DNA from: Alkalicoccobacillus plakortidis
GTDB lineage: Bacteria; Bacillota; Bacilli; Bacillales; Bacillaceae_D
DNA length: 64,000 nucleotides
Reading direction: 5' to 3'
NCBI RefSeq assembly: GCF_023703085.1
Contig: NZ_JAMQJY010000001.1
Location: forward strand, 62,001-126,000
Every line of letters starts with the position of its first letter. Position 1 is the stretch's first letter. The notes beneath the pieces were generated by a model that saw nothing but the letters and a program-made list of their open reading frames with translations, did not search any database and was not told the DNA's origin. Shown one piece after another: positions 4,830 to 50,559 of the stretch. The position numbers and the translations under genes are program-made.

Positions 4830-5673
4830 ATGCCACAACCAACTAGTCATACTTACCATATTGCTATGACAGAGACCATTGCTTGGAAGTCTTAGATACG
4901 GATTTAAAGGAGCAGGTCGAGCAAATCATACATTTATTGCTTTTGATGATTATTTTGCTTATGGTCCGATTTGGAATCTTCATGAAAAAGCAGGTGTCAT
5001 AGCACGTTACAAATGGATGGAACGAATGCGACATAGTACTAGCTATAAGCAGGGCTACACAAGGTTTTATGAAACTCAGAACGATATTCAACAAATTCCA
5101 GCAGGTTCAGATGTAATGATTTGGACAGGAAATAATGCAACGGAGCAGGTTGGTTATTTGTTTGCCATGTATCTATTAAAAAATCATACTTCAAATGTTA
5201 GAAGTATAAATACATCAGATTATTATCACGAGCTTTTTCCGCAAATGCGTGATGAGCAATTTTATCCACAAATAAGCTCAGAAATATTGCCTGAGCAGCT
5301 GCGAATGATGTTTGCAGAGCATAAATTAGATTCAATCGCTATAGAAATCAGGAAGAAACTTGAAGATGAATGGCTGAGGAGATCTGAATCAGAAGATGTA
5401 CTCAGAGTCTGGAGAGAAAATTCATTGTTGAATGTACCAGAAGATGCACTGGACGAAGACATCTTAAACATAGCTTGGTTATTACATCATGAAAATGATC
5501 AGGATGAATTTATGAAAGCAATTAAATTAATTGCTCATGCGGTAGGTGAATTCGATCAATTACCTAGTGATACATTTATCGAATATCGGATAAAAGCGCT
5601 TATTCATCAAGGTAAGCTGTTAATGAGAGGAACATATCATCAAATGTGGACGTACGAAGTGATGCCTTTATGA
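4830..5673 (+). CDS. DUF1835 domain protein (one frameshift in this sequence)
   Basis: ATG 4830 after AAGGAGACAACATC begins a protein whose reading frame breaks at GCTTGG (4881-4886). Removing one T gives HIAMTETIAGSLRYGFK and joins the N-terminus to the rest, for about 280 residues. The N-terminal part has the DUF1835 pattern (AGSLRYG, then FDDYFAYGPI, then WTGNNATEQVG) and the end (IEYRIKALIHQGKL) matches the usual C-terminal DUF3658-like helix. Bacillus members have no known biochemical role. It overlaps the next gene by ATGA, so the two are likely translationally coupled. I judge the frameshift an artefact because the rest of the protein is well preserved. Confidence 0.7.
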
Positions 5674-6122
5674 CTGAACTGGAGAGATCTATTTTATCTG
5701 CCAATTATGATTCAGCTGAGTTACTTTATCGTGAGATGAGCTTTGATACGTTTTCGAGTACAATGATTGTGGGTGCATTTGATCAACCATCATTTAGTTA
5801 TTATACTTTTCTTGCTAGTTTACTTATCAAACAAGAAGAGGTAAGGATTCACCATTTGGCAGTAGAATTGCTTATTCTTCCTCTATGCCACATAGAAGGA
5901 GCCTACTTTTCAGCACTTTACCATGTGAGAAAAATCCTATATTTAACGAATGGTAAGGATTTAGCAGGCATGGAAATGTTACTTTTCTTAAGTGAAGTTC
6001 CTGATCAGGTAGTGGCGAAAGAAGAAGCTTCTCAAGTTGCGCAGGTACTTCTTACGTTGGATCATTCAAATCAAATAGCACGTGAGTATGTAAAAAATTT
6101 AAAGGCACAAGAAAAAGAATAG
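5670..6122 (+). CDS. Hypothetical protein coupled to the DUF1835 gene
   Basis: The start is best placed at ATG 5670, which overlaps the DUF1835 stop as ATGA; an in-frame GTG at 5646 would overlap further. The 150-residue product is helical with no membrane segment or signal peptide and resembles short helical-repeat proteins (FLASLLIKQEEVRIHHLAVE; SALYHVRKILYL). I do not recognise the family. The four-base overlap implies co-expression, perhaps as a partner of the DUF1835 protein. Confidence 0.6.
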   Translation: MTELERSILSANYDSAELLYREMSFDTFSSTMIVGAFDQPSFSYYTFLASLLIKQEEVRIHHLAVELLILPLCHIEGAYFSALYHVRKILYLTNGKDLAGMEMLLFLSEVPDQVVAKEEASQVAQVLLTLDHSNQIAREYVKNLKAQEKE

Positions 6123-6203
6123 AAGGCGACCATTTTAAAAACAGTAAATGAACTGACCATACTATCTGAATTTTGTTAATCTATGATAAAGGAGATGTTC
6201 AAA

Positions 6204-6987
6204 TTGATCAAAACTGGTGTATGTTCCGTGACCTTCCGAAAAGAGTCAGTTGATACAATTATAAAGAGAACAAAGCAGGCGAATTTAGATGGCATTGAAT
6301 GGGCTGCTGATGTACATGTTCAGCCTGGAGATAGCCAGCAAGCAGAATGTGTAGCTAGAAAGATGAAGGAAGCTGGTCTAGAGGTGTTGTCTTACGGTTC
6401 GTATTATCGTGCGAGAGCTACGGAGAATGGCAACTCGTTTGAAACGATTCTTCAAACAGCTAAACAGCTTGGAGCCCCATCTATTAGAATATGGGCGGGA
6501 ATAAAGGGGTCTGAAGAAGCATCTGAGAAAGATCGACAACAAGTAACAGCTGACATTCAACGTATTGCTGAGCTAGCTCAAGCACAAAAAATTGCTGTAC
6601 ATATTGAGTATCATGGTGGAACACTTACCGATACAAGTGAAAGTGCCAAACAATTAGTAGAGGATATTAATCATAATAACGTTAAGTTGTATTGGCAACC
6701 AGCTGTTGGTATAGAAGTATCAGAACGAGTAAAAGACATCCAAATAGTAAAACCATTCTTAAAGCATGTTCATGTTTTTTATTGGCAAGAACAGGATAGG
6801 CTTCCTTTAGCAGAGGGAGTGGGGGCCTGGAGACAATACTTGCATCATCTTCACTTAAAAGATCCTCATGAAGACCAAGCATTTTCTATTAGAGTTTGTC
6901 CAGGATGAAGATCCCGAGCAGTTTCAAGAGGATGCACAGGTGCTCTTAGAGCTTATGTCAGAATTCGAATTGAGAGCGCATTCATAA
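6204..6987 (+). CDS. Sugar phosphate isomerase/epimerase (TIM barrel; one frameshift)
   Basis: The protein starts well at TTG 6204, nine bases after AAAGGAG. The product resembles AP-endonuclease-2-type TIM barrels such as IolE/IolH-like isomerases: GVCSVTFRKE at the first strand, DGIEWAADVHV, then VHIEYHGGTLTDT with metal-ligand candidates, and KHVHVFYW. The frame breaks at CCAAGC (6875-6880). Removing one A gives DQHFLLEFVQDEDPEQF and extends the protein to TAA 6987, for about 260 residues, the normal family length. Without repair the C-terminal 30 residues are lost. The substrate is unknown and no sugar catabolic neighbours are present. Confidence 0.72.
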
Positions 6988-7016
6988 AATTTGATGTGTA
7001 AGAAGAGGTGAATGTA

Positions 7017-7736
7017 ATGAGTGAACTGAATAAGCTGAGCCCGATCAAGGCAGCAGAACAATTTATCAATGACTATTTTCGAGATTGTCAAGGAGCTTTG
7101 TTAGCAGGTAGTGTTGTTAGAGGTGAGGCAACAGAAACCTCGGATCTTGATATCGTGATATTTGATAAACATCTTACATCATCTTACAGACAGTCGTTAG
7201 TGAAATATGATTGGGCGATAGAGATCTTTGTTCATAGTCCAACCTCTTATAAACATTTTTTTAAATTGGATTTTGAACTAGCGAGACCATCTATGCAAAG
7301 AATGGTTTCGGAAGGAATAATCATAAAAGATGATGAAATCCTTGCATCCATAAAACAAGAAGCTACGGATCAATTAAATAAGGGACCTGAAGAATGGTCA
7401 ATAGAAACAATAGATACAAAACGTTACTTTATTACGGATGCATTAGATGATTTTATAGGTTGCTCTAATCGAGCTGAGGAATTATTTATAGCAAATACAC
7501 TTGCTGAGTTAGTAAGCGAATTTGTTCTAAGAACTAACAAACAATGGACTGGTGCATCAAAATGGGTGATTCGTTCATTGAGAAACTATGATGAGGTGTT
7601 CACTGATCAATTTGTCAAGGCGTTTGATATGTTTTATAAAAACGGAGACAAAAATCTAGTAATCCATCTAGTCGATGAAACATTGGAGCCATTTGGAGGT
7701 CGATTGTTTGATGGCTTTTCACTAGGTAAAAACTAA
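7017..7736 (+). CDS. Nucleotidyltransferase domain protein
   Basis: 239 residues from ATG 7017, eight bases after AGAAGAGG. An in-frame GTG at 7008 overlaps the ribosome binding site and is less likely. The N-terminal domain has the polymerase-beta-type signature GSVVRGEATETSDLDIVIF (about residues 30-48): GS followed by the D-x-D metal-binding pair. The C-terminal half is helical. Relatives include aminoglycoside nucleotidyltransferases and MNT toxins or antitoxins. No HEPN partner gene is adjacent, so a toxin-antitoxin role is not supported here. The substrate is unknown. Confidence 0.75.
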   Translation: MSELNKLSPIKAAEQFINDYFRDCQGALLAGSVVRGEATETSDLDIVIFDKHLTSSYRQSLVKYDWAIEIFVHSPTSYKHFFKLDFELARPSMQRMVSEGIIIKDDEILASIKQEATDQLNKGPEEWSIETIDTKRYFITDALDDFIGCSNRAEELFIANTLAELVSEFVLRTNKQWTGASKWVIRSLRNYDEVFTDQFVKAFDMFYKNGDKNLVIHLVDETLEPFGGRLFDGFSLGKN

Positions 7737-7762
7737 ATTAAAAGCGGGCAATAACTGTGATT

Positions 7763-7790
7763 AAACGGCTATGATAAGGTAGTCGTTTTT
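7763..7790 (+). terminator. Rho-independent terminator
   Basis: AAACGGCTA (7763-7771) pairs with TAGTCGTTT (7780-7788) with one G-T pair, followed by T residues, 27 bp after the nucleotidyltransferase stop. Confidence 0.6.
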
Positions 7791-7911
7791 AAATGATCTG
7801 AAAAATATAAGCTGAAACGCTCTGCTAGCTTCGCACGTATACTACTTTGACCATTTGATTCGTTTTTATAAGATCAGTTAATTGGAAAATAATCGTTTAG
7901 GAGATTAGTTG

Positions 7912-9543
7912 ATGAGGCAATTAAAACCACAAAAAGGGAAATCAATTGTGATTCCTTTAGGCGGCATTCTGGTTATGATCCCTGTAATTATTATAAGTGT
8001 CATACTTATTATTGGTTTGGTTCAATACAATCCAAATCTTGAGCAAGCGGATGCATTAATGGAAGAGGCTCAGCTATCACAACAACAAGCAGAATCGATT
8101 GATCAATATTTTCTCTTACCTAATGGTCATGCGCTTTCAGTCTCGTATGAGCATGAAGAGATGATGCTTCATGAGATTGATCCAAAGACAAGTGCGCTCA
8201 TTCATTCTGAAAAATTAGATACTGATATCTTTAATCGTTTATTTACTTCTTATCAACAGGATGGATTAGTTTTGATCACAAAAGCAGCAAAGGATCATAG
8301 ACTATTAGCCTATTATTATGAAAGTGGGCAAGGCTTGGTTACATTAGATATTCCAGAAACAAAAGTAGATGGTTTTCTAGAAAATCATGTTCTTGTATCG
8401 GGAAATTCAATATACATAACAGGTCTCGATGATTCAAATACCCATCTTGCTTTTATGATTAATGATACTACATTCGAGAACATCCCACTTATGGATGATG
8501 AACGAATAGTTGATCTAGTGGAGGTTGGTTTCTATAAAATTGGTTCGTTTAAGAACTTACAGCCAGCATTGGAGCTGACACTTTATGATCGATCTTCATA
8601 CATCATGAGCTTATCAGATAATGTAGATGAAAGGTTTCTAGTCTCTGCCTCTAATTCACAGTGGGAAACGGAGCAGAAGCTGTGGTCTCATTATTACCAA
8701 TCAGGTGATGCTGCCATGCGATTGGATGGTGAGAAATTTGCTCAATTTGATTTACTAACTGGTCGTTATATAAATGATATTGAAACACCACAGCTTATCT
8801 ATTATCCAGAGTTGTTTCAGCTTGGTGAGGACCAAACGCTAGCTCTTGGTCGAGAGACGGTGAATGAAACAGCTCCAATGATTGGATACCTTTATAATCG
8901 ATCTGGTGAAAAGCTTCAAGCAGATCTAACACCACAGCTACAAGAGGTTACCTCACAGATTCTTTTCACAGAGCCGGTCTTCTCAGCTCAACTAGTAGAT
9001 GATAACCTGTATCTTTCTTCATCGGACCAAGCTAGTGTCATCAACATCAAAGAGCAAAAGATAAACTACGTAACAGATTTCACATTTCAACAAACATTTT
9101 CGAATGTAGCTTATGAAAAAGAAAAGCAGGCAGAACAGCTAATAAACGAAGGTAGCACATTTTCACTAGACAAAGTGGTACCGTACGTAAAAGATGATGA
9201 AGCTGTTCAGGTAATGGGAATTTTTATGGTGATTTGGATTGCCGTCCCATTAGCTATTATTCTTATCATTACTCATTTGATGAAACGCAAGTCCCGTAAA
9301 ATACAAAAAATTTATGATAATGGGGGCGTGGTGGTGCAAGCGACAATCCTTCAATTAAGACAAACTGGTCTATTTATTAATGAACAGCCTCAGGTCCTCA
9401 TGCGTGTTCAATTTGTTCATCTAAACAAGAAAATGGAACAAGAAATAAAAAAAGTTGTTAATCTCATCTCACCACCTAAACCAGGAGATACAATTGAATT
9501 GTTATATGACCCAAGGAATGAGAAGGTTTATGTGATTGATTAA
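7912..9543 (+). CDS. Large two-helix membrane protein with extracytoplasmic domain and DUF3592-like C-terminus
   Basis: ATG 7912 (an in-frame TTG directly precedes it) follows TTAGGAG. About 543 residues. One membrane helix lies near residues 12-36 (IPLGGILVMIPVIIISVILI), then about 400 residues outside the cell with repeated beta-strand patterns suggesting a propeller-like fold. A second helix near 436-458 is followed by a cytosolic tail of about 80 residues. That tail (GGVVVQATILQLRQTG, then PGDTIELLYDPRNEKVYV) resembles DUF3592-type modules. No catalytic motif is recognised. The terminator shared with the convergent DUF418 gene ends the unit. Function unknown. Confidence 0.65.
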   Translation: MRQLKPQKGKSIVIPLGGILVMIPVIIISVILIIGLVQYNPNLEQADALMEEAQLSQQQAESIDQYFLLPNGHALSVSYEHEEMMLHEIDPKTSALIHSEKLDTDIFNRLFTSYQQDGLVLITKAAKDHRLLAYYYESGQGLVTLDIPETKVDGFLENHVLVSGNSIYITGLDDSNTHLAFMINDTTFENIPLMDDERIVDLVEVGFYKIGSFKNLQPALELTLYDRSSYIMSLSDNVDERFLVSASNSQWETEQKLWSHYYQSGDAAMRLDGEKFAQFDLLTGRYINDIETPQLIYYPELFQLGEDQTLALGRETVNETAPMIGYLYNRSGEKLQADLTPQLQEVTSQILFTEPVFSAQLVDDNLYLSSSDQASVINIKEQKINYVTDFTFQQTFSNVAYEKEKQAEQLINEGSTFSLDKVVPYVKDDEAVQVMGIFMVIWIAVPLAIILIITHLMKRKSRKIQKIYDNGGVVVQATILQLRQTGLFINEQPQVLMRVQFVHLNKKMEQEIKKVVNLISPPKPGDTIELLYDPRNEKVYVID

Positions 9544-9614
9544 TGTATAGTTGTTGCACTTGGCATTCTAGTTTGGAGAATAAAAAGAGAAAAAGCTATA
9601 GCTATCTAACAAGA

Positions 9615-9644
9615 AAAAACCATACTAATCTCAGTATGGTTTTT
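9615..9644. terminator. Bidirectional Rho-independent terminator
   Basis: AAAAACCATACT (9615-9626) pairs with AGTATGGTTTTT (9633-9644) around a 6-nt loop. A and T runs on both sides serve the two convergent genes. Confidence 0.85.
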
Positions 9645-9651
9645 CCTGTAT

Positions 9652-10821
9652 TTAAGCAATTCCTTGCTTCTCTTCCCGAGGTTTACGATGAACAAGTTTT
9701 CGAAATAGGTGATCCATCGGTCCGTTTAATTGCTTTTTCTCAAGTATAGTGGCAATTAACAGAGCCAACAGCCAGATACCAAAAGCAATGGACCAGCTTA
9801 CAGTTAATCCAAATGTCTCACCTAAATTCAGTGTATAGGTAGAGAGGAATACAACTAATAAGGCTTCATTTAGCATGAAAAAGGTGAGAGAGCGTTTGCC
9901 GAGGGCTGTGATTGGTCGAACAAAGAGTTCCTTCTGTATTAGCTTTGGACCAATTAAGCCAAATATAGCTGCATAACTTACCCCGCCAATAATGCCAGTA
10001 ATCATATGCAAGGAAAAAATTAATCCGCTAAATAGTGGACCGAGTTCAATGATTCCATTGCTGTAAAGGGCTTGAGGGATTGCGCCTAAAATGGACACGG
10101 TTATGCCTATAATCGCTACTTTTTTCAATAATGGCTTGTGATCAGGTTGTTCATTTAAGAGCTTTTTCCTTCCTGCCCATATGCCAAGTAGGAGGGAGAC
10201 AACTATAGGTAAGGCAAGGTTCCCAAGAAAGGGTCCACCAGTTATAAATTGCATGAATTGGCTGCTTAGATTCTCACTATACGAGGTGTAAGTGAGTTGA
10301 AGTGCATTTTCTTCTTGTAGCATGACCGCCATACTTCCCCACATGACTGGTAAGATGACCACAAAGAGTGCTGAAATAATCGCAATCGCTCGCTTAAGTA
10401 CTTTATCGCTTTTAAAAATGAGCCAGGTAATACAGAGTAGAGCCGCTCCGTAGATTGCTAGAATATCTTGGCCACCAACGATTACAGATAAAAAGAATCC
10501 AAAAATCATCAAATATAAAGCCCTTCTATATAGAGACATTTTGGCATCACGTATGGTTCTATTTCTTTTAAGGTAGCTTGCTACGATTAGGGTCAATCCA
10601 TAACCAAAAAGAAACGCAAACATAGGTCTTGCACGATTATCAACAACAAAAACGGAGATGTAATTTAAGATTGTATCCATCGAATGCATGCTTTCAGGTC
10701 GACTGAGTAAAGTGCTACCTGCATACAAAGAAGCATGAGCTAACGCAACTAAAAGCAGCATCATACCGCGAGCTAAGTCTAATGAGATAAAACGTTTTGT
10801 ATGTAATGAGTTATGTGTCAT
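9652..10821 (-). CDS. DUF418 family multi-pass membrane protein (YeiB-like)
   Basis: 389 residues with about ten hydrophobic segments. The N-terminus (RFISLDLARGMMLLLVALAH, with conserved D and R) is typical of DUF418/acyltransferase-like membrane proteins. The C-terminal third (ALGKRSLTFFMLNEALLVVF) is the DUF418 signature. Members are proposed membrane acyltransferases or transporters without firm biochemistry. The gene is divergent from a TetR-family regulator, with AGTACT repeats in between. It is likely the main target of that regulator. Confidence 0.8.
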   Translation of the reverse strand: MTHNSLHTKRFISLDLARGMMLLLVALAHASLYAGSTLLSRPESMHSMDTILNYISVFVVDNRARPMFAFLFGYGLTLIVASYLKRNRTIRDAKMSLYRRALYLMIFGFFLSVIVGGQDILAIYGAALLCITWLIFKSDKVLKRAIAIISALFVVILPVMWGSMAVMLQEENALQLTYTSYSENLSSQFMQFITGGPFLGNLALPIVVSLLLGIWAGRKKLLNEQPDHKPLLKKVAIIGITVSILGAIPQALYSNGIIELGPLFSGLIFSLHMITGIIGGVSYAAIFGLIGPKLIQKELFVRPITALGKRSLTFFMLNEALLVVFLSTYTLNLGETFGLTVSWSIAFGIWLLALLIATILEKKQLNGPMDHLFRKLVHRKPREEKQGIA

Positions 10822-10948
10822 CTTGAGTGGACATTCCTTCCTTTTCGACTAGTAATAAAGACCAATGATAAGAAACCAATGGTAGCATCAATTAGATTCT
10901 ACAGTCAAAAACTTTGTGGTACTACTGATATAAATGATCTGAATGAAC

Positions 10949-10968: not shown

Positions 10969-11035
10969 TATCATATAAGACATTTTTTTGTATCATGTTA
11001 AAATGACCAAAGGAAGAATGAAGGAGAGATACAGG

Positions 11036-12190: not shown

Positions 12191-12194
12191 TTCG

Positions 12195-16184: not shown

Positions 16185-18330
16185 GTGGCCGATATGCTAT
16201 TAAGCTACTTTCGAGAAAAACAGAGACAGACACAAAAAGAAAAAGTACGTAATACCCAATGCCCGTTTTGTAGTGTGCAATGTAAGATGCAATTAGTGGA
16301 GCAAACAAGTGTTACGAGAAAAACGTATCGAACAATAGGACTTGATAATCCAACCTCAAAAGGACGACTATGCATAAAAGGCTTGAATGCCCACCAACAT
16401 GCTTTCCATAAAGATCGTCTAATGCAACCGCTTATTAAAAAGAATGATGAATTTGTTCCTGTAAGCTTGGGACGAAGCTCTTTCTTATATAGCTGAACAA
16501 ATTCATCTTATTCAAAACGAAGACGGCAAGAATGCTATGTCTGTCTATGGAAGTGCATCCATTACCAATGAAGAGGCTTATCTTATGGGTAAATTTGCAA
16601 GAGTTGGGCTTCAAACCAAATACATCGATTACAACGGACGTTTATGTATGTCTGCTGCCGCTTCAGCTGGAACCCTGACATTTGGGATGGATCGAGGACT
16701 CACAAATACCTTAGAGGAAATTTCCTATTCTGAATGTATCATTCTCGCTGGTACGAATATTGCTGAATGTCAGCCAACGATTATGCCTTATTTTGAGCAA
16801 GCAAAGGAGAATGGCGCTTTTATCATTGCTATTGATCCACGCGAAACCGCAACAACCAAACTAGCAGACCTACATTTAAAGCTTAAGCCAGGAACGGATG
16901 CGGCATTAGCAAATGGTCTCTTAAAAGTAATTATTGATGAAAAACTGATTGATGAAGTTTTTATTCAAGATAGAGCTAATGGATTTGAAGAAGTGAAGCA
17001 GCATGTGGCGGGCTTGTCACTTGATGAGATTGCTGAGAAAACAGGTGTAGCCCTTCGAGATATTCAGAGAGCAGCCACAGTTTTTGGTAAAAGAGCAGCA
17101 GGTATGATCCTGACTGCGCGTGGAGTTGAGCAACAGACGGATGGCTCCATTGCTGTGCGTAATTTCCTTAATATTCTGATTGCAACAGGGAAGATTGGCA
17201 AAACAGGCTGTGGTTATGGCGCTATTACTGGCCAAAGTAACGGTCAAGGTGCTAGAGAGCACGGACAAAAAGCGGATCAATTGCCAGGTTATCGATCGAT
17301 CGAAAACGAAGAGCACCGCGCCTATGTAGCGAATGTATGGGGAGTCGATCCCAATCAGCTTCCAAGAAAAGGTGTATCAGCTTTTGAGATGATTCAGAAA
17401 ATGGATCAAGGAGAAATCACTGGTTTGTTTCTCCTATGTTCAAATCCAATCGTTTCAAATCCAAATGCTCGATTTGTAAAAAAGGCATTAAAAAAGCTGA
17501 AATTTCTTGTAGCAGTTGACTTATTTGTCTCAGAGACAGCTAAGCTTGCGGATGTCATCCTACCGACGACATCATACTTAGAAGACGAAGGAACCATGAC
17601 CAATTTAGAAGGCAGAGTGACGTTACGTGAAGCAAGTAAATCGGCACCGGGTGAAGCAAGGCATGATTGGCAAATTATCTGTGATGTTGCAAAGGCGTTA
17701 GGCAAAGAACAGTACTTTTCCTATACATGTGCAGAAGATGTTTTTAATGAACTACGACAGGCAAGTAAGGGAGGAGTCGCTGATTATTACGGAATAACGT
17801 ATGATCGACTTCGTGGTAAAGACGGCCTGCTTTGGCCATGCCCAACACTTGATCATCCAGGAACCGGTCGATTATTTGAGGATCGTTTTGCCCATCCAGA
17901 TGGGCGTGCTGTCATGGCTGTCGTTCCGAACGAACCAGTCATTCCAAAAGAACAGCCATGTGTTGAGTATCCACTATTTCTAACAACAGGTAGGGTAATG
18001 GCCCATTACTTAACAGGTGTTCAAACAAGAAAAAGTTCATCTTTATCAGCAAGACATTTTGAATCATTTATGGAGATCCATCCTGAAACGGCCAAACAAC
18101 TCGGAATCACCGATCAGACTCTTGTTCGTATTACCTCAAGACGTGGATCGATTGTGGTAAGAAGCAAATGGTCCACTCAGATAAGGGCAGACACTGTCTT
18201 TGTGCCATTTCATTGGGATGAAACACAAAATGTAAATAGGCTTGTAGAAGACAAACTGGATCCAACCTGTAGAATGCCTGGATTTAAAGTAAGTGCAGTT
18301 CAAGTGTCTCCACTAGTTCATATACGCTAA
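16185..18330 (+). CDS. nasC: Assimilatory nitrate reductase catalytic subunit NasC (one frameshift)
   Basis: Molybdopterin oxidoreductase of about 714 residues after repair, like B. subtilis NasC (710). The N-terminal [4Fe-4S] motif is intact ([10 protein letters not shown]... then GRLCIKG), followed by the Mo-bisMGD domains ([59 protein letters not shown]) and the C-terminal dinucleotide-binding domain (RVMAHYLTG). The frame breaks at GCTTGG (16465-16470); with one T removed it reads [18 protein letters not shown] 16185 has good spacing from GGGAG. It reduces nitrate to nitrite. The nitrite reductase genes nasDE are not in this window. Confidence 0.85.
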
Positions 18331-18355: not shown

Positions 18356-19572
18356 ATGAAACTATCAGACTTACGAAAAAGTGGTCATGCTCCATCATTG
18401 TTTTCTGCGTTTTTATACTTTGATATTAGTTTTATGATTTGGGTTATGCTTGGCGCATTAGGTGTATATATTACAAATGACTTTGGCTTAACTGCTTCAC
18501 AAATCGGCTTGATTGTGGCAATCCCAATCCTCGCCGGGTCCATTTTTAGAATCATTATGGGGGTTCTAACTGATCGTTTTGGACCAAAGAAAACAAGTGT
18601 TGGTGGAATGATTGTCACGATGATTCCACTCTTATGGGGTTGGCTACTCGGTACATCGGTAGCCGAACTCTATATGATTGGAATTCTATTAGGTGTAGCT
18701 GGAGCAAGTTTCTCCGCGTCGCTGCCAATGGCAAGTCGCTTCGTACCCACCTGAATTACAAGGACTAGCTATGGGTATAGCCGGAGCTGGGAATAGCGGG
18801 ACACTGCTTGCGACCTTATTTGGTCCAAGGCTTGCCGAAGTAGTTGGTTGGAACGGAGTGATGGGTCTTGCTTTAATTCCACTCTCTCTTGTTTTGCTTT
18901 CCTATACGCTTATGGCAAAGGAGCCGCCCAATCAACCTAAACCAAAACCGATTAAAGAATATTTTGCCGTCTTTAAAGAACGAGACACCTGGTTTTTCTG
19001 TTTGCTCTATAGTGTAACCTTTGGTGGATTTGTTGGATTGTCGAGCTTTCTTAGTTATTTCTTTGTTAGCCAATATACACTATCACCTATCAGAGCAGGC
19101 GAGTTTGTCACCATTGTTGTGGCAGCTTGGAAGTTTTCTACGTCCAGTAGGTGGTTTGATCTCGGATAAAATTGGTGGAGCCAAGTTGCTTTATTTCTTA
19201 TTCATTGGTATGACGATTTGTATGCTAACGGTCAGTATGCTCCCACCATTACTTTTTGTGACAATAGCCTTGTTTATTGGAATGGGATGTTTAGGTATGG
19301 GCAACGGTGCTGTATTCCAGTTGGTACCGCAGCGTTTTCAAAAAGAAATTGGGATGGTAACAGGAATCGTCGGGGCCGCAGGAGGAATTGGCGGATTTTT
19401 TCTTCCAAATATCTTGGGAATCCTACGAGATTGGACAGGAACCTATGCAAGTGGATTTATTGTTTTTGCAATGATTACACTGATGGCTGTAGGACTATTA
19501 GCATTTGCCCAAGCTTCATGGAGAAAGGAATGGAAGTTGGCTAAGTCATCTAAAAAGGCTGTTCAACTATAA
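18356..19572 (+). CDS. Nitrate/nitrite MFS transporter, NarK/NasA type (two frameshifts)
   Basis: About 404 residues after repair, 12 membrane helices. Nitrate-porter motifs are visible: [12 protein letters not shown] after helix 2, [20 protein letters not shown] in helix 5, and [10 protein letters not shown] plus [15 protein letters not shown] in the second half, matching the paired Gly-rich nitrate signatures. The first break lies at 18740-18743, within SR-x-YPPE, where relatives have Trp (TGG). The second lies at GCTTGG (19125-19130), and removing a T gives [18 protein letters not shown]. Last gene of the nas operon; ATG 18356 follows AGGAGTGAG. It imports nitrate for NasBC. Confidence 0.82.
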
Positions 19573-20785: not shown

Positions 20786-22019
20786 TTGGAAAATGACGAA
20801 TCTAGTATGGAAAGGCGCTACATTCATAAAGGAACAAAGCAATACCTGAAAACGAACATTGCTTTTTTTGTTGCTGGTTTTAATACATTCACCATATTGT
20901 ATTGTGTGCAGCCTTTACTTCCAAACTTCTCGCAACACTATGAACTCAGTCCAACTGTAGCGAGTTTAGCCCTTTCATTAACAACAATTGCATTAGCAAT
21001 AGCTATGTTGTTTTTTGGGTCACTTTCGGATGCTGTAGGTCGAAAGAATGTCATGCTTTATTCAATGATTGCAGCTTCTGTCATCTGTCTTTTCATCCCA
21101 CTAAGTCCTACATTTACATGGCTACTTGTTTTACGAACGATCCAAGGCATTGCACTTGCTGGTTTGCCATCGGTTGCAATGGCTTATTTAAGCGAAGAGA
21201 TATCTCCCAAAAGTCTCGGCGCAGCCATGGGATTATATATTTGTGGTAATGCTTTAGGAGCAACATTTGGACGAATGTTCTCTGGTATTGTGACAGAAGC
21301 CGCAAATTGGCAATCTGCTTTATTTTTGGTTGGGGTTATTAGTTTAGCAGCAAGTATTTTGTTTGCATTCTTTTTGCCTATTTCATCTAATTTCCGTCCA
21401 ACAAAACGACAAGTGCCAGAGATGATTTATTCATTAAAAAGTCATCTAGGTAATACTCGGCTTCTGTGTTTGTTTGGTTTAGGGTTTATTTTGCTCGGAA
21501 CGAATGTTGCTTTATTTAATTACATGGGTTTTACACTATTAAATGAACCATATTCAGTCAGCCAAACGATTGTTAGTTCGATTTTTCTTTTATTTATCAT
21601 TGGCATGTTTAGCTCAGTTATAGCAGGTAAATTGGTAGATTCCGTTGGAAAAGAAAAGACCGTTCTATTAAGTTTACTAATTATTTTAGTAGGTATCTTA
21701 TTAACACTGATTCCAAATCTAGCATTCAAAATATGTGGTACAGCGATGTCTGTGTACGGTTTTTTTAGTAGTCATTCTGTTGCGAGCAGTTGGGTTGGCT
21801 CGATTGTTAGTAAAAATAAGGCGCAAGCAGCTTCCTTATATTTGTTTTTCTATTATGCTTGGGTCAAGTGTAATCGGCACACTTGGCGGTATTCTATGGG
21901 CTACGTTAGATTGGACTGGTGTGGCTTGGATGAATATCATCTTTATTTTAATTGGATTCCTATTGATGTACGTTTTAATTAGTCAGAGTAATAGTGGAAT
22001 AAAAAAGTCGAATCTTTAA
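20786..22019 (+). CDS. MFS transporter, YybF-like drug exporter type (one frameshift)
   Basis: About 410 residues after repair with 12 membrane helices. The start is best at TTG 20786, six bases after AAAGGATG; an in-frame ATG at 20777 is too close to the ribosome binding site. The MFS motif A follows helix 2 (GSLSDAVGRKNVML), and VLRTIQGIALAGLPSVAMAY in helix 4 is typical of drug/H+ antiporters of the YybF/YnfM group. The frame breaks at GCTTGG (21857-21862). Dropping one T gives YYAGSSVIGTLGGILW and restores the last helices. Divergent from its probable LysR regulator. Confidence 0.8.
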
Positions 22020-26860: not shown

Positions 26861-28071
26861 TTAAAAGTAGTCCGAAAACCAAGGATCATTATTGGGAACG
26901 ATTTGTTCCAGATATTGAATCGTTTCTTCAGATGCTTTAAGGCGTCCAACTTCCTTTAGATTCGATGCTTTTTTATAATTAAGCAGCATCGTGCATAAGG
27001 TTTGTATATCTGTTTCAATCACATGAGGTTGAGTAGAATCAACCTGTGAGATCTTTTTCTCTTTTGTCCATTCAAATGAAAAGGTTCCATTGTTCCATTC
27101 TAGAATGGGATCGGTCAGATGGATAGTAAGGCCATCGCTGACATGCTCAGTGAACGGGAAGTCTAATAAAAAGCGCACTGCATCAACAATTCTCGCCATA
27201 TAATAAGGTGAGATTTTTTCTTCGATTTCTCCATCATCCAGGAAAAAGGAAAGTGGTTCATTTTGAAAAATCTTTCCTTCAACATAATAAACCATCGAAA
27301 AGTGTGCACCAATAAAATTCCAAAGTCCTCTTCGTGCATCCTCATTATTGAAAATCATCTCGCGAACATAAAATGTTTCATTTTCAACCTTGTAATACAT
27401 ATATCCTGTAGGGTGGTGATCTTCATTGTAATAAACACATGCAGAAAGATCGTCTCGTTCCCAGCGGAAATGTTCATCCCACGCGAGCTCATTCCGGATC
27501 ATCGCCCCGTTTTCTTTCTTTGAGAAATCGGAGTAGGTTAATTTAATGTCAGGGTGATCCCACTTCACTCGTTCCATTCTTCCAGACACTTCATAAGATT
27601 TCGGAATCTGTGTATCTCGAACTTTATAAGTGATGACATCTGAGATGATCTCCAGCCTTTTTTGCGATAATAAGGAATGGAGTACGGATAGAGATACGAG
27701 ATGGTTTGGCCTGAATCTCTCATCTTTTGTAAGCTTTGTTTCATTAGGTCATTCATAAGTCCGAGGCCAACGTACTCCGGATATGTGCCTACACCAGTCA
27801 CTCCACCCATTTTAAATGCCTTGCCGTGGATATTGACGTTAAACGGGTAAACAACCAATTGTGACACTAGCTTATCACCAGAAAACCACCCAAGACCTTC
27901 ACACTGCTCAAGAACGGGTTTTTTCCATTGCATTGGATGTTGTCCGCGAATTTGAGCTAAGTCTTGATTTGTTACTTGAAATACATATGTTAATAACTCT
28001 GCAGACTGGTCCACGTGTTGAATTCCGATTGGGCGTATATCCAACGACCGCTTAATCTCCTGCTTTGACAT
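26861..28071 (-). CDS. Eis-like GNAT acetyltransferase (one frameshift)
   Basis: About 403 residues after repair, the length of Eis-type enzymes, which have two GNAT domains and a sterol-carrier-like C-terminal domain. The N-terminal GNAT is clear (GGVTGVGTYPEYVGLGLMND, then PYSIPYYRKKGW). The C-terminal part (GLTIHLTDPILEWNNGTFSF) is the SCP2-like domain. The frame breaks at 27651-27656: the reverse strand reads GGCTGGAGATC, whereas GGCTGGGAGATC gives KGWEIISDVITYKV, the family continuation. ATG 28071 and GTG 28078-28080 are both possible starts. Members acetylate amines of small molecules; no resistance claim is made. Confidence 0.75.
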
Positions 28072-35635: not shown

Positions 35636-37647
35636 ATGAAAACCAAAAAAGAAAAACAAACAAAAGGCAAAACAATGACTTTACGTTCAAAGTTAATACT
35701 GGCTTTTTCTATTGTATTAATTTTACCTAGTCTAATTATTGGACTAAGCTCATACCAAAGTGCGAGCTCAAACATTAATGATCAACTACTTAATTCTACT
35801 TCAGAAAGCTTATCCATTATTGATAATACAATAGGCAATTTTATTAATACACAAAAGGAAAATATCGCTTATATTGCGGATGCAAGTGATGTTGAGAATG
35901 GTTTTCTTGAAGAAGAGACGGATGAACAACGAGTTCTACTCGACACATTCCAAAATACAAAAGCAGATGTAGAGCAGACCTTTGTTGGCACAGAAGAAGG
36001 GAATTTCATGAATTCTCCTACTTCCTTTCAAAATCCTCCAGATTATGATCCACGTGAAAGACCTTGGTACCTAACTGCAATGGAGGCAGGTCAAGATATT
36101 ATCATTACACCTCCATACATATCAGCATCCTCTGGTGAACCTGTAACAACAGTTGCCAGAACAACTGCTGATGGACTTGGAGTTGCTGCGCTTAATTTAA
36201 AACTTAGTGTTATTACTGATATGTTAAACGAGATCTCAATTGGAGAGAAAGGCTATGTCTTTCTATTAGATCAGAATAATATGTATGTGTCACACCCATC
36301 TGAAGAACTTGGTGAACCTGCGGAGGATGAGTATTTAAAATTTCAGGATGCTGTCAGTGGGCAAACGAATTTTACGTATGGGGAAACCGAACAGACATTA
36401 AGCTATTTAACCAATGAAGAAACTGGGTGGAAGATTGTTGCGGCAATGGACAAAGAAGAGAGCCAAGAAGCATCGTCTAGCATTTTTCAGACAATGATTA
36501 TCGTAGTTGTTCTTTCAATTGTTGGGGGAGCTACTTTAATTTACTTCTTACTTCGCTCAATTATTGGTCCAATTTCAACATTAACAAAAGCGGCAGAAAG
36601 TATGAGTCAAGGTGATCTTGGAACTGAATTTTATGTTCATCCTAGTCGGAATGATGAAATTGGTCGTTTAGGAAAAGCATTTGAACATATGAGATTTGCC
36701 TTATCAACGATGCTTTCAAACGTGCAAGATAAAGCTCAGCATTTAGCTGCCTCTTCAGAAGAATTATCTGCGAGTACAGAAGAAAATACTCGAGCTACTG
36801 AACAGATATCCTCTGAAATGCAGGAAATGGCATCTGGTGTTGATGCACAAAGAGATAGCATTGGACAAGGAAAACTCGTATCTAAACAAATGGCTGAATC
36901 TGTACACACTGTGTCACAGCGTACAGAACAAGTACAAAAAACAGCTTCCAATGCTTCTCACCTTGTTGAGGATGGAAATGAAGCTATTCAGACAAGTATA
37001 GAACAAATGACACAGATTAAGGATACAGTTCTTGAATTATCAAGTAGTGTAGAGGGACTTGGCAAAAGCTCAGATGAAATTAGCAAAGTAGTTGATGCAA
37101 TCAAAAGCATTGCGGAACAGACAAATTTATTGGCATTAAATGCAGCGATTGAAGCAGCTCGCGCTGGTGAACAAGGTAAAGGCTTTGCAGTCGTAGCCGA
37201 GCAAGTTCGAACGTTAGCTGAACAATCTGCAGAATCTACGCAAGTTATTGGCGGCATTATTCAATCTATTCAAACGGAAACAGCGAAAACTGTTAAGAAG
37301 ATGGGCGAAAGCACAAACCAAGTAGAAAAAGGAATCGAAGTCGTGAACGTGGCTGAAGATCCTTTACAGAGATGAAGAAATTTGTAGATGAGGTTGTAAG
37401 TGAAGTCTCTGAAGTGAGTGAGCACACAAAATCAATGGCTACTGGTACCGATCAATTTGTTCAAACCTTTACAGAAATTTCTGCAATCTCCGAAACGACA
37501 GCGGCAAGCACTGAGACAATTTCTGCTTCAACAGAAGAACAGCTGGCTTCAATGGAGGAGATCTCAACCTCTGTAGGTACGCTGACATTGTTGGCAGAAG
37601 AATTACAAAACTTAGTATTGCAGTTTGAAGTAAAAGATCAGAAATAA
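35636..37647 (+). CDS. Methyl-accepting chemotaxis protein with Cache sensor (one frameshift)
   Basis: About 670 residues after repair. Order: N-terminal helix (about 20-40), extracytoplasmic dCache-type domain (about 45-275; [32 protein letters not shown]), second helix (about 285-305), HAMP, and a long methylation and signalling coiled coil with the CheA/CheW hairpin ([20 protein letters not shown]). The frame breaks near 37351-37360: GGCTGAAGATCC becomes [16 protein letters not shown] if a G is restored (GGCTGGAAGATCC), as in other chemoreceptors. Behind a SigD promoter, hence expressed with motility. The ligand is likely an amino acid or carboxylate by family, but this is not provable here. 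Confidence 0.85.
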
Positions 37648-41430: not shown

Positions 41431-41459
41431 AGGAAATGGGATGCTCATGGGAGGAGGTC

Positions 41460-41746
41460 GATACCGGCGAAAAGAGCCACATTACCCGCGAGAGGAAGTC
41501 GATACCGGCGAGAAGAGCTCCATTACCCGCGATAGGAGGTGGATACCCGCGAGAAGAGCCACTATACCCGCGAGAGGAAGTCGATACCGGCGAGAAGAGC
41601 TGCTTTACCCGCGATAGGAGGTCGATACCGGCGAAAAGAGCCACATTACCCGTGAGAGAAGAAGGATACCCGTGAAAAGAGCCACATTACCCGCGAGAGG
41701 AAGTCGATACCCGCAAGAACAGACGCTTTACCAGCAAGAAGAACCA
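41460..41746 (+). repeat. Second tandem array, 7 copies of a different 41-bp unit
   Basis: GATACC starts at 41460, 41501, 41542, 41583, 41624, 41665 and 41706, exactly 41 bp apart. Each unit has two related halves of about 20 and 21 bp built on TACC(C/G)GCGAGA(A/G)GA: GATACCGGCGAGAAGAGCCA, then CATTACCCGCGAGAGGAAGTC. The last copies are more degenerate. The sequence is unrelated to the array at 2703-3243 but shares its period, two-half construction, purine-rich + strand and intergenic position right after a terminator. Reading frames over it are by-products. Confidence 0.93.
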
Positions 41747-44337: not shown

Positions 44338-44416
44338 ACATGGTTGTTGCGATTACTACTAAAAAGACATTTTATAATGGAAAAATAGAAAGAAACATCT
44401 GAAATGAGGGTATGTC

Positions 44417-45487: not shown

Positions 45488-45492
45488 AGACA

Positions 45493-45528
45493 TAAAAAAG
45501 CGCCGTCCTCATTGGATGGCGCTTTTTT
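45493..45528. terminator. Bidirectional terminator
   Basis: AAAAAAGCGCCGTCC pairs with GGATGGCGCTTTTTT around TCATT, between convergent rlmN and the peptide transporter. Confidence 0.88.
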
Positions 45529-45532
45529 GCAT

Positions 45533-47028
45533 CTACTCAATACCTTGCATGAATTTCCGGATGAATGGTGTAAAGAGATAAAGAAGCAATCCAAGTGCAA
45601 TCGCTGATCCTCCAATAATACCAAAGTACATTATTTCATTATCAACGCTATAATACTGAACTACTTGTGCGTTAATCGCTTGACCCGCGGCATTAGATAA
45701 AAACCAAAGACTCATCGTTTGTGCAGAGAATGCGGCTTGGCGCTAATTTTGTAGTAGCCGAAAGTCCAACTGGAGATAGGCAAAGTTCACCTAATACAAC
45801 GATGAAGTAACTCAGAACTAACCATAGTGGGTTTACTAGACCTGTACCACCAGACATATAGGCTGGAAATAGCATGACAAGAAAAGATAAACCAGCAAAC
45901 AAAAGCCCGATTGAAAATTTCTTAGGTATAGATGGCTGTCTAGCTCCTAGCTTCACCCAAAACCAAGCGAACACTGGTGCTAAAATTATAATAAACAATG
46001 GATTCATTGATTGAAACCATGCTGGAGAAATTTCGATCCCAAGCAAAATTTAGTTGTGTTCGTTTATCTGCATAGTTAGCAAGAATCGTTGATCCCTGTT
46101 CTTGAATAGCCCAAAACATAACTGATGCAAGAAACAGTGGAATGTAAGCAAGAACTCTGGATTTCTCTTTAGGGGTTGTCTTAGAGCTACGATACATTAC
46201 AACAAAATAGATTGTAGGAATGAGAAAACCTAAAATTCCAATAATGCCTACAAATACATCAAAAGTAAGAAAGCCATAAGAAAGACCAGAAACAACAAAC
46301 AAAGCAATAATAACAGCAGCTAAACTAAAGATTAAGCCTGTCCGCTTTTTCTCTGATGCATTTAATGGATTAGAAGGAAATGTTCAGCAAGACCAAGGTT
46401 TTTAGAACGAGTAAATAGAAACGTGATGAGTCCAATCAGCATTCCAATCGCAGCTAATGCGAACCCAAGGTGAAAATCTACTTCTGTTCCCACGGTACCA
46501 ACAATAAATGGTGAGAGAAACCCACCAAGGTTAATCCCCATATAAAAGATACTAAAACCAAGCGTCTCGTCGATTATCTGTCTCACTATATAAATCGCCA
46601 ACTACACTCGATACATTGGGTTTTAACAAACCTGTTCCTAATACTATTAAAACCATCGAAACGAAAAACATGGGTACACTGCCTGGTATGGCTAATACGA
46701 TGTGACCAAACATGATGAATACACCACCGTAAAAAACCGCCTTTGATGTACCAAAAATTCGATCGGCAAGCCATCCACCGATGATTCCAGACATATAGAC
46801 TAGCGAACCATAGATCGACATAATGGCAAGTGCGGTGCTCTCAGGAAGTCCAAGTCCGCCTTTAGATACCTCATAATACATATAAAAAACCAGGATCGCT
46901 CTCATTCCATAATATGAGAATCGTTCCCAGAATTCTGTGAAGAACAATGTGAATAGGCCTTTAGGGTGACCAAAAAAACCTTTCTGAGGAACACTTTCAA
47001 CTATTTTTTGTTTATCAATTTCTGACAT
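45533..47028 (-). CDS. POT/PTR2-family di- and tripeptide transporter (four frameshifts)
   Basis: About 497 residues after repair. The PTR2 signature opens the protein ([20 protein letters not shown]), followed by [39 protein letters not shown] and [20 protein letters not shown]. Breaks: 46558-46563 (reverse strand GCTTGG, should be [10 protein letters not shown]), 46384-46388 (GCTGAAC, should be GCTGGAAC, giving LGLAGTFPSNPL), 46039-46044 (GCTTGG, should be [11 protein letters not shown]) and 45736-45740 (CCAAGC on the coding strand, should be [11 protein letters not shown]). Each repair is a single base and restores the family sequence. Proton-coupled peptide uptake. Strong promoter upstream. 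Confidence 0.83.
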
Positions 47029-47056
47029 GAAAATAACACTCCTTTAATAGTTAGAA

Positions 47057-47094
47057 ATAATACTCTTTAACACTTTAGTTGTCAAAAGTGTTAA
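47057..47094 (-). promoter_or_regulatory. Strong SigA promoter of the peptide transporter with overlapping inverted repeat
   Basis: Reverse strand: TTGACA (47085-47080), 17 bp, TATTAT (47062-47057). A perfect 10-bp inverted repeat, TTAACACTTT-N8-AAAGTGTTAA (47067-47094), brackets the -35 box and is well placed for a repressor. The regulator is unknown. Confidence 0.65.
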
Positions 47095-47190
47095 TAATCA
47101 AATGATTTTAAAGACTTTTATACCGTGGAAAAATGTCGTAAATGATATGAAAATGTAAAAAATTAATGTCTATGGTGGTGAAATAAAGGT

Positions 47191-47236
47191 TTTTACTTAA
47201 TGAGAAATACGGTATAATCAAATGAAAACGCTTACT
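47191..47236 (+). promoter_or_regulatory. Promoter of the YesM-like kinase with a CcpA cre site
   Basis: A -10 TATAAT (47213-47218) has a -35-like TTTTAC (47191-47196) 16 bp upstream. 47222-47236 (ATGAAAACGCTTACT) matches the cre consensus WTGNAANCGNWNNCW at every defined base and covers the expected start point, so CcpA would block transcription when preferred sugars are present. Confidence 0.7.
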
Positions 47237-47256
47237 CGTAAGGGAGTTATGACGTA

Positions 47257-49038
47257 TTGCTAAAACAAAAGCTTCTCAAATGGATGAATCACTTAAAACT
47301 TAGAGACAAATTAATGCTGACTTTTATAGTGGTTGTTTTAGTTCCAATTTCTTTAGTGGGAATGATGTTAACCCAGGAACTAAGGTCTATTGCTTTGGAT
47401 GAGATGAATAAACAATCTCAGGCTAATATCGAAAGGGTTAAGGAAAGAACCTACGACCTTCTTAAGATTCCCACGTTCATTTCAAATAGCCTTGAATTTG
47501 ATAAGGAATTAGATGATCTTGTGAACACGTCTTATAACTCAACCTATGAGGTTTTTCAAAGCTATTATCAATATCAGAACTTTCAATCCTACCTGTATAC
47601 TCAACGAGAGATAAACGGTATTCGATTTTATTTTGATAATCCTACTCTTATCAATAATTGGGAATTCATACCTGTTGATGATGATTTGAGGAAAAAAAGT
47701 TGGTTTCAGCAAGTAGAAGATGAAGTAGGTTTTAATCAATGGCGGTTATTATCAGATGAGACAAATCAAAATCAAACCTATCTTAGTTTAATTAAACGGA
47801 TTAATTTCTTAGAGAATCAAACGTATGGAGTCGTTGTTATAACAATCGATCCTACCCAGTTAAATGCTATTTTAAATCAAGAGTCTCTATTAACATTCAT
47901 TACAGATGAAGAAGGTCATATTATTTCAACGAATAAAAAGGAATATATGGATGGAGTGTTGAGTGATTTTATCGATCCGAACATTTTAAGAGAAACTGGG
48001 ACACATGAATCCGCTTTTGAGGGTGATCAAGCTCAGGTAACAGTAGATCATATTAATCCCATGTTAAGTCAGAGCGAACTGAAAATCGTATCTGTAACCT
48101 TAGATAATCTGGTTGTAGAGCGGGCAGATCGACTTGGCGTTACAGGAATTATGATCACACTAATTGGGGTAACGGTGGCAGTTGTTTTAATTGCTATTTT
48201 TTCGAACCTTCTTTCTCAACGCCTCTCTAACTTAAGTCGAAAGATTGAACGTGTTGCTGCAGGGGACTTAACAACTAAAATTACGATTGATGGCACAGAT
48301 GAAATTGGACAGCTTTCGCATCAATTTAATGATATGGTTGAGAATTTAAAAGGAATGATCGAACAAGTTCTCGAAACCAATCGTCAAAAGAACTTAATGG
48401 AAGTCACACAAAATGAAATGAAGTTTAAAATGCTTGCGAGTCAAATAAACCCTCATTTTTTATTTAATACTCTTGAATCGATTCGTATGAAAGCTCACAT
48501 CGAGCAAGAGAAAGAAATTGCTAATGTAGTTAAGCAATTAGGCATTATTATTCGTAAGAGCCTTGATACGGAAGGAAAGCCGCTTCCATTAGAAGATGAA
48601 ATGGAACTTGTAAAAACGTACTTAGAAATTCAGACATTTAGATATGGAGATAGACTCCAGTATCAATTAAAGATTGCACCAGAATCTAAACACATACTTA
48701 TTCAACCGTTAACCATTCAACCAATTGTAGAGAATGCTGTCTATCATGGACTTGAAGCGAAAGAAAATGGGGGAGAAGTCGTTGTCTCTACCTATATTCA
48801 GGACAGTGACATGATTATTTCAGTTAAAGACAATGGTGTGGGAATTAGCGAAGCTCGGTTGGGTCAAATCCAGGATATGTTTGAGGAAAAAGAAAGTAAT
48901 GGACAAAATCGGATTGGATTGAGGAACGTACATCAAAGACTTCAGATCATGTATGGGCCGAACGCAGGACTTAAGATTTCAAGTAAAGAGGGAGAAGGTA
49001 CACACATTCAATTTAGCATACCATGGGAGGGGACATGA
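47257..49038 (+). CDS. YesM-type sensor histidine kinase
   Basis: 593 residues from TTG 47257. N-terminal helix (about 17-37), extracytoplasmic sensor of about 250 residues, second helix (about 298-320), HAMP, then the HisKA_7TM-type kinase core with the His box SQINPHFLFNTLESIR, N box VENAVYHGLEAK and G box DNGVGISEARL. The family pairs with AraC-type response regulators to induce carbohydrate uptake. Its stop overlaps the regulator start (ATGA). A perfect cre site lies in its promoter. Confidence 0.9.
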   Translation: MLKQKLLKWMNHLKLRDKLMLTFIVVVLVPISLVGMMLTQELRSIALDEMNKQSQANIERVKERTYDLLKIPTFISNSLEFDKELDDLVNTSYNSTYEVFQSYYQYQNFQSYLYTQREINGIRFYFDNPTLINNWEFIPVDDDLRKKSWFQQVEDEVGFNQWRLLSDETNQNQTYLSLIKRINFLENQTYGVVVITIDPTQLNAILNQESLLTFITDEEGHIISTNKKEYMDGVLSDFIDPNILRETGTHESAFEGDQAQVTVDHINPMLSQSELKIVSVTLDNLVVERADRLGVTGIMITLIGVTVAVVLIAIFSNLLSQRLSNLSRKIERVAAGDLTTKITIDGTDEIGQLSHQFNDMVENLKGMIEQVLETNRQKNLMEVTQNEMKFKMLASQINPHFLFNTLESIRMKAHIEQEKEIANVVKQLGIIIRKSLDTEGKPLPLEDEMELVKTYLEIQTFRYGDRLQYQLKIAPESKHILIQPLTIQPIVENAVYHGLEAKENGGEVVVSTYIQDSDMIISVKDNGVGISEARLGQIQDMFEEKESNGQNRIGLRNVHQRLQIMYGPNAGLKISSKEGEGTHIQFSIPWEGT

Positions 49039-50559
49039 TGAATCAGGTTATCATTGTTGATGATGAACCCATGATCCGAGAGGGATTACGTTCATTAATA
49101 CCTTGGGAGCAATATGGGTTTAGTGTAATTGACATCGCTAAGAATGGAAAAGAAGCATTTGAACTATATCAGCGAGTAAAACCAGATCTAATGATCGTAG
49201 ATATTCGTATGCCAGAAATGGGTGGGTTAGCATTAATAGATCTTATTAGGGAGCATGATACAAAAATTCATTTTATCATATTAACAGGGCATGCAGACTT
49301 TAGTTATGCTCAAAAAGCATTGTCTTCTAGAGTAGACGGGTATTTGTTAAAACCATTAGATGAGGATGAACTCATAGACTTGCTTATTCAAATTCGGACT
49401 GAGCTACAGAGACATAATGCAATCAACTTATTACAGGAAAAAGATCAACTTTGGCAAAGAGATCTTCTTATTAAAGAGACATTGTCTGAACCAATCGACG
49501 CAAAGAACCTAATGACTTTTTATGATAAGTGGAAGGACCATGGTCTTCAAGAAGACAGGTATCGAATTATATTGGTAACCGTTCCTGAATCCATGGATAA
49601 AGTTCATGCAGCACTTAGTTCTATTGCTAATGAAAAGAAGGATGCCATTCCTTTTTCAATATGTACTTTTAATGGAGTCATTCTTTTTAATGAAGCGATA
49701 CACACTGAAAAAAAGGTAGCTGCTTACATTCAAACAACAAAAGGGTATGGTGCTATAGGAGCAACAGTAACAGATCCAAGCCGACCTGTATCAATCCTAT
49801 GAAGAAGCACAATTCTTATTAAAACAAACGTTTTTATTCGAAGAAGCAACATTTATAACGAAGGATTTGATAGCAGATCTTCAAGAGCATGAGTTAGAAA
49901 TAGTAACGGAGCTTTCAATGGATGACTATGTAGAAAGTCTTTCCATTACGATTACTCTTGGTCAGACGGAATCATGTCAATCTCAACTACAGGAGTTCAC
50001 AAATGAATTGATAAGACGCAAATATGATTCACAGCAAATCAAAAAAAATATTGTCCATCTATATTCAATGGTTATAAACCGGCTTGTACTAAATGATTCT
50101 AGAAAATTAAAATCAATAGAGTCTACGCAATTTAGTACGAGTCAGATTTATGATCAGCATCATGTGCATGCCATTACTGAGGCTGTAAGTGATCGGTTTA
50201 CAGAGTTAATTCATCATGTTTACTCGGGAGGTAAGGAGACTACGATTAAAAAAATGGTAGATTTGATTAAACAGCAATATGATCAAAATCTTCGTCTCGA
50301 GTCGTTAGCCGATCTTCTTAATTATAATTCCGCTTATTTAGGCAAGCTCTTTCGTGAACACACAGGGGAATACTTTAATACGTACCTTGATAAGGTCAGA
50401 ATTGAGAATGGAAAAAAACTATTAGTAAACGGATATAAAGTATATGAAGTATCAGAAAAAATTGGATACAAAGATGTGGATTATTTTCATCGTAAATTTA
50501 AGAAATATGTAGGGATCTCACCAAGAACGTTTCAGAAAGAGCAGGCAGCGATTAAATGA
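49035..50559 (+). CDS. YesN-type AraC-family response regulator (one frameshift)
   Basis: About 507 residues after repair. Receiver domain at 1-120 (VIIVDDEPMIREGL; phospho-acceptor Asp56 in LMIVDIRMPEMGG; Lys in GYLLKPLDEDEL), a long middle region, and a C-terminal double helix-turn-helix (LRLESLADLLNYNSAYLGKL, then VSEKIGYKDVDYFHRKFKKY). The frame breaks at CCAAGC (49776-49781); removing an A gives TDPADLYQSYEEAQFLLKQ. ATG 49035 overlaps the kinase stop. Probably activated the sugar ABC transporter now separated from it by the IS110 element. Confidence 0.85.

Follow-up and report, generated by a model that had tools for sequence, protein, structure and literature searches.

Single-base changes at GCTGG in the Alkalicoccobacillus plakortidis assembly: probable miscalls at a modified base, and a candidate cytosine-5 methyltransferase pair

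Frameshifted genes of the window

The stretch of 64,000 nucleotides considered here (the window; positions 62,001-126,000 of contig 1 in the 4.37 Mb, nine-contig assembly of the alkali-loving, soil-type bacterium A. plakortidis) carries genes for an assimilatory nitrate reductase, MFS transporters, a chemoreceptor and an oligopeptide:H+ symporter region that are interrupted by single-base frameshifts, most of them at places where related genomes have the pentanucleotide GCTGG (CCAGC on the other strand). A protein of the window is 90% identical to its match in A. porphyridii, 87% to that in A. murimartini and 83% to that in A. gibsonii. Alignment of congener proteins to the window, with single-base frame changes scored and minimum values of 60% coverage, 40% identity and 40% local identity, independently recovered all 14 of the frameshifts that a sequence-only reading had reported, among 19 events in total; the five additional events (6106, 22116, 34094, 38693 and 61046) are each backed by a single reference. 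At least two congeners support 12 of the 14 breaks, and those at 4883 and 21859 are backed by A. murimartini (G002) alone. The 14 sites are as follows, in window coordinates.

4881..4886, plus strand: GCTTGG, insertion class; the single aligned congener, A. murimartini, has GCTGG in a stretch of 97% DNA identity
6875..6880, minus strand: CCAAGC, insertion class; CCAGC in 1 of 4 congeners
16465..16470, plus strand: GCTTGG in an assimilatory nitrate reductase gene; GCTGG in 4 of 4 congeners
18738..18743, plus strand: GCTTCG in an MFS transporter gene; GCTGG in 3 of 4 congeners
19125..19130, plus strand: GCTTGG in the MFS transporter gene also broken at 18738..18743; GCTGG in 1 of 4 congeners
21857..21862, plus strand: GCTTGG in an MFS transporter gene; the sole aligned congener has GCAGG
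27652..27656, minus strand: CCAGC with an adjacent base lost, deletion class, in a GNAT-domain gene; CCAGC in 3 of 3 aligned congeners
37352..37355, plus strand: GCTG, deletion class, in a chemoreceptor gene; GCTGG in 2 of 2 aligned congeners
45735..45740, plus strand: GCTTGG in the oligopeptide:H+ symporter gene region; GCTGG in 3 of 3 aligned congeners
46039..46044, minus strand: CCAAGC in the same region; CCAGC in 3 of 3 aligned congeners
46385..46388, minus strand: CAGC, deletion class, in the same region; CCAGC in 1 of 3 aligned congeners
46558..46563, minus strand: CCAAGC in the same region; CCAGC in 2 of 3 aligned congeners
49776..49781, minus strand: CCAAGC in a response-regulator/AraC-type gene; CCAGC in 1 of 2 aligned congeners
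52890..52902, strand not assigned: frameshift in an ABC permease gene, not tied to GCTGG; GCTGG in 0 of 4 congeners

Nine of the 14 sites read GCTTGG or CCAAGC, as had been claimed, and the proposal that GCTGG restores the frame is supported at 12 sites, where at least one congener has the motif (25 of 41 site-by-congener DNA alignments; a single aligned congener among several at 6877, 19127, 46384 and 49778). The exceptions are 21859, where the one aligned congener has a different word, and 52897. The deletions near 27652, 37355 and 46384, attributed to GCTGG in the sequence-only reading, are among the 12; of the two breaks described as consistent with a garbled copy of it, 18741 has the motif in three of four congeners and 52897 was rejected, the motif being found there in none of four. 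The intact copies named in the sequence-only reading exist: the window holds 58 GCTGG/CCAGC against 33 GCTTGG/CCAAGC, so that the majority of copies are intact.

One stretch of 6.6 kb (2941-9543) is 97% identical to A. murimartini, compared with approximately 75-90% in the other aligned stretches, and was probably acquired by recent transfer. A. murimartini has nine GCTGG words there; two of the three single-base insertions fall inside them (4883 and 6877), and none of the 170 substitutions does. A strict tally of DNA flanks against another congener, G003, was dropped: little emerged from the 67 GCTGG places that could be used at 77% identity, and protein-guided tests were therefore preferred.

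Changes at GCTGG over 800 kb

The larger sample was 800 kb of contig 1, compared with the proteins of G003 alone or with three congener references merged, and filtered more stringently (proteins with at least 70% coverage and at least 50% identity; events with at least 45% local identity and at least eight aligned residues on each side). With G003 as reference, frameshifts (165 events) affect 139 of 579 conserved genes, and GCTTGG lies in the ambiguity interval of 100 of the 126 insertions. Merging the references brings the count to 133 insertions and 45 deletions. GCTTGG/CCAAGC lies in the interval (mean 24 nucleotides) of 104 of these insertions, whereas 300 random placements gave a mean of 1.6 and a maximum of 7; the motif insertions comprise 66 in one orientation and 38 in the other, in agreement with the statement that both are struck. 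The remaining insertions comprise six at GCCTGG, four near an intact GCTGG and 19 at neither. GCTG(G) is found at 22 of the 45 deletions (null mean 6.0, highest 14) and a homopolymer at 13 (null 2.0). When G003 was passed through the same pipeline as a control, three of 164 genes were frameshifted and neither of two insertions lay at the motif; with the control's references, the genome under study has 33 of 129 genes frameshifted and 23 of 29 insertions at the motif.

Counts of words tell the same story at the level of the whole sequence. A ranking of all 512 strand-merged pentanucleotides, corrected for G+C content, has GCTGG at its depleted end (rank 1, ratio 0.73) and GTTGG at its enriched end (rank 512, ratio 1.29); GCTGG ranks 87 and 338 in the congeners G003 and G004, tested identically. 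Relative to expectation, GCTGG falls short by 394 copies while GTTGG exceeds it by 314 and GCTTGG by 136, a balance of loss and gains that supports motif-specific miscalls. The loss is greatest when C or G precedes the word or G follows it (CGCTGG 0.37, GGCTGG 0.47, GCTGGG 0.44). The whole genome contains 3,178 GCTTGG, about 728 per Mb as against about 507-544 per Mb in four congeners (genome sizes rounded), and 20 kb from each of contigs 2-9 resemble contig 1, with 888 GCTGG and 681 GCTTGG per Mb. GCCGG (1.27) and GTGCC (1.24) are likewise among the most enriched words; their excess is possibly a rarer error at GCTGG, T being read as C, or drift.

The insertions described in the sequence-only reading are thus real, but by word counts the commonest change is a C-to-T substitution, which was invisible to it. 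Where the congener has alanine before glycine, GTT (valine) accounts for 36 of 312 GCT plus GTT codons; elsewhere the figure is 55 of 2,939, and the reverse comparison gives 5 of 285. On the other strand, CCA followed by GC has become CCA followed by AC (alanine in the congener, threonine here) in 22 of 112 cases, against 5 of 215 in other contexts and 2 of 126 in reverse. Silent positions shift as well: the ratio of GGC to GGT before TGG is 15:63 compared with 41:39 in G003, and CTG between G and G accounts for 35 of 143 compared with 81 of 143. Two further classes are too small or flat to be informative (serine after NCC, 2 of 9; TGC before TGG, 6:3 compared with 6:4). Ala-to-Val and Ala-to-Thr changes at conserved sites (14 of 41 where G precedes, 7 of 19 where C precedes) are of the same order as the silent rates. 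The C-to-T substitutions are blind to coding effect, striking conserved alanines and silent positions alike, and the changes as a whole are motif-specific and coding-blind over the 800 kb and absent from the congener.

Base modification as the cause of miscalls at GCTGG

These observations show a motif-specific error of the assembly; the frameshifts are best read as consensus errors of long-read data, to which the excess of homopolymer deletions gives a nanopore-like appearance. There is a close precedent. In Listeria monocytogenes R20-0026 (ST1081), errors of Oxford Nanopore Technologies R9.4 sequencing were centred on GCTGG; whole-genome amplification reduced the mismatches from 5,670 to 16, and seven other Listeria strains sequenced alike had 0-40 (Chiou et al. 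2023, PMC10687267, according to the accessible portion of the paper). On the strength of that study, base modification is the favoured cause here also: we assign a probability of roughly 0.88 to miscalls at GCTGG brought about by a modified base. The proposal that a modification-related miscall is the simplest explanation is accordingly retained, on the grounds of motif enrichment with its congener control, the balance of word counts, the indifference of the errors to coding and the nanopore precedent.

The two cases have in common the pentanucleotide, errors in a long-read assembly and, as far as the accessible text of the Listeria report goes, a writer that its authors did not know. They differ in that the Listeria errors, for the most part mismatches, were proven by Illumina sequencing and amplification, whereas substitutions and indels are inferred here from congeners; and in that no restriction-modification system was found there, whereas a locus resembling one is present here. 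A search of the literature for a 5-methylcytosine enzyme specific for GCTGG/CCAGC returned that report as the sole nanopore case concerning GCTGG, to judge from the accessible texts; PMC5487053, in its accessible part, just includes the word in a ranking of sites.

In the mechanism that we favour, the cell would modify a base at GCTGG/CCAGC, and a basecaller ignorant of the mark would generate consensus errors. About one third of GCTGG copies would be wrong, chiefly as GTTGG (C called as T) and GCTTGG (an extra T), with loss of a G being rarer. The C-to-T pattern and the inventory of enzymes suggest that the mark may be 5-methylcytosine on the C of GCTGG. The writer could be an adjacent pair of cytosine-5 methyltransferases that share out the two strands of the asymmetric site, and marking of both strands would account for the failure of the consensus.

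A candidate methyltransferase pair

It had been suggested that an orphan, type IIG or type III methyltransferase be sought elsewhere in the genome. No type III enzyme (PF01555) was found and matches to the Eco57I family fell below the cut-off; the cytosine-5 genes that were found are likelier writers. A search with PF00145 returned four such genes, compared with 1, 0, 0 and 0 in four congeners, and these are the strong DNA-methyltransferase matches of the genome: two adjacent genes and two in prophages.

Contig 1, 2,593,245-2,594,489 and 2,594,500-2,595,666, same strand: cytosine-5 methyltransferase pair (PF00145, 236.5 and 185.5 bits)
Contig 1, at 16.9 kb (353 amino acids) and at 1,647.7 kb (224 amino acids): prophage cytosine-5 methyltransferase genes (PF00145)

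The members of the pair are 28% identical to each other and belong to a locus at about 2,587.9-2,595.7 kb of contig 1, some 2.5 Mb from the window, in which they are followed downstream by a gene of 232 amino acids, an AAA protein that we read as McrB-type, and a protein with DUF2357 and a PD-(D/E)XK domain (DUF2357 and PDDEXK_7 above the cut-off, the AAA domains below it). The layout resembles that of LlaJI, from the Lactococcus plasmid pNP40, in which two 5-methylcytosine enzymes serve an asymmetric site and are accompanied by two restriction genes, one of them McrBC-like (PMC1459862, accessible portion). The likeness is one of gene layout, and the present locus has in addition the 232-amino-acid gene and an HNH neighbour. 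LlaJI acts on GACGC/GCGTC (same source); GACGC ranks 397 of 512 here, which signifies no miscalls at that word, not absence of methylation. Searches of solved structures and families identify the enzyme family of the methyltransferases, not their target. Since the asymmetric GCTGG would need two strand-specific enzymes, the pair could supply both, and on balance we consider the LlaJI-like pair the more probable candidate for the writer.

The adjoining HNH gene (contig 1, 2,595,974-2,597,107; 377 amino acids) has as its best NCBIfam match, below the cut-off, a phosphorothioate-type endonuclease. None of the other loci compared has a homologue of it next to the pair, and on both counts it was dropped as the pair's endonuclease.

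Relatives of the second enzyme (E of 1e-60 or better) occur in six of 397 other Bacilli genomes; in all six a relative of the first enzyme adjoins it, and in two the three-gene restriction module lies alongside. An adjacent pair of homologous cytosine methyltransferases (65.8% and 56.6% identical) is also carried by the Lactococcus lactis plasmid p275D, the annotated restriction neighbour of which is a PLD-domain enzyme. The restriction partner is an McrBC-like module in this genome and two others, and a PLD enzyme on the Lactococcus plasmid.

Contrary observations and alternative explanations

Several observations weigh against modification by the pair as a full account. Nineteen of the 133 insertions and 10 of the 45 deletions match neither the motif nor a homopolymer, and GCCTGG, although present at six insertions, is not enriched overall (131 copies compared with 133 expected). 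Most GCTGG copies are correct, with 974 per Mb remaining, and TGCTGG is barely altered (0.87); any modification must therefore be partial or often called correctly. The Listeria errors were mismatches, indels being said not to be their cause, and the authors found no restriction-modification system in the affected strains (PMC10687267, accessible portion), which counts against a restriction-modification pair as the general writer of GCTGG. Finally, G271, another carrier of the pair, has a GCTTGG count that is ordinary among its congeners, an observation that is uninformative unless its assembly is of nanopore origin.

The alternative that fares best keeps the artefact and transfers its authorship to one of the prophage genes. 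Both match PF00145 and adjoin genes that we read as phage-type, and an orphan enzyme would fit the GCTGG strain of Listeria, which lacks a restriction-modification system by its authors' search (PMC10687267, accessible portion). However, a writer of a single strand would account less well for errors that survive a two-strand consensus, the 224-amino-acid gene covers the first half of the family alone (1-169 of 324), and no Listeria phage appears among the best 40 of 877 and the best 30 of 1,175 phage matches of the two genes. We regard a prophage writer as a possible but unlikely source of the mark.

A systematic fault of basecalling at GCTGG, independent of any modification, would be compatible with the homopolymer deletions, which indicate that uncorrected platform errors are present. 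It is very improbable, given that Listeria strains sequenced alike had no GCTGG errors and amplification abolished those of the affected strain (PMC10687267, accessible portion), and that no depletion is seen for the sister words GCAGC, CCAGG and GACGC (1.07, 1.11 and 1.05).

Real mutation, whether through decay of pseudogenes or through deamination of methylated cytosines in GCTGG in the course of evolution, is more improbable still. Deamination would convert a methylated C to T, exactly the substitution observed, and may add to the silent excess of GTTGG, but it does not produce insertions; its opposite-strand products, GCTAG and ACTGG, are not raised (1.00 and 1.05); and real mutations would leave a quarter of conserved genes dead. 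The similar frequency of amino-acid replacements at conserved sites and of silent changes argues likewise against decay and deamination, which would spare conserved residues.

N6-methyladenine on CCAGC, placed by a type III enzyme resembling Neisseria ModD1, which recognises CCAGC, the same word on the other strand (PMC13248682, accessible portion), is improbable to a similar degree, since ModD1 is a type III adenine enzyme and its family, PF01555, has 0 matches here, as has PF02086; two PF07669 matches lie below the cut-off and one PF02384 match (39 bits) lies above it (other adenine families were not searched). The last is in a gene of 351 amino acids that we take to be a YtxK-like housekeeping gene.

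Other features of the window

An RNA of about 200 nucleotides resembling a tRNA lies at 2438-2636 on the plus strand; it is 96-99% identical in all four congeners and conserved above its surroundings. Of 398 Bacilli genomes, 10 have a match, the genome under study among them (eight nearly full length); 18 plasmid records (eight from Listeria, five from Cytobacillus) and no phage record have one. No Rfam family reaches its gathering score; ARAGORN calls the RNA solely with introns allowed, as tRNA-Gly(tcc) with an intron of 108 nucleotides, and its fold is no stabler than those of shuffled sequences (z -0.87). Two tandem arrays with a period of 41 bases lie at 2700-3242 (13 copies) and 41451-41743 (6.6 copies), and an IS110-family transposase gene at 50689-52128.

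Conclusions

Miscalling at a modified GCTGG is an artefact of a known kind, with its precedent in Listeria, and A. plakortidis is a second apparent case for this word, in another genus. What is new is the second genus, an explicit spectrum of errors and a named candidate enzyme, the pair being the useful part. Extrapolation from the 800 kb suggests that about 1,000 genes would be marked as disrupted, and amino-acid changes recorded by the hundred, for a technical reason; the completeness score is 96.9 compared with about 99 in congeners, and the artefact would depress it and mislead comparative work. There is perhaps an even chance that the pair is a GCTGG/CCAGC module, with one enzyme for each strand, that is mobile among Firmicutes and plugged into varied restriction partners, in which case the scars of nanopore miscalling would reveal 5-methylcytosine specificities. 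Assembly scars of the GCTGG kind can point to the specificities of 5-methylcytosine enzymes.

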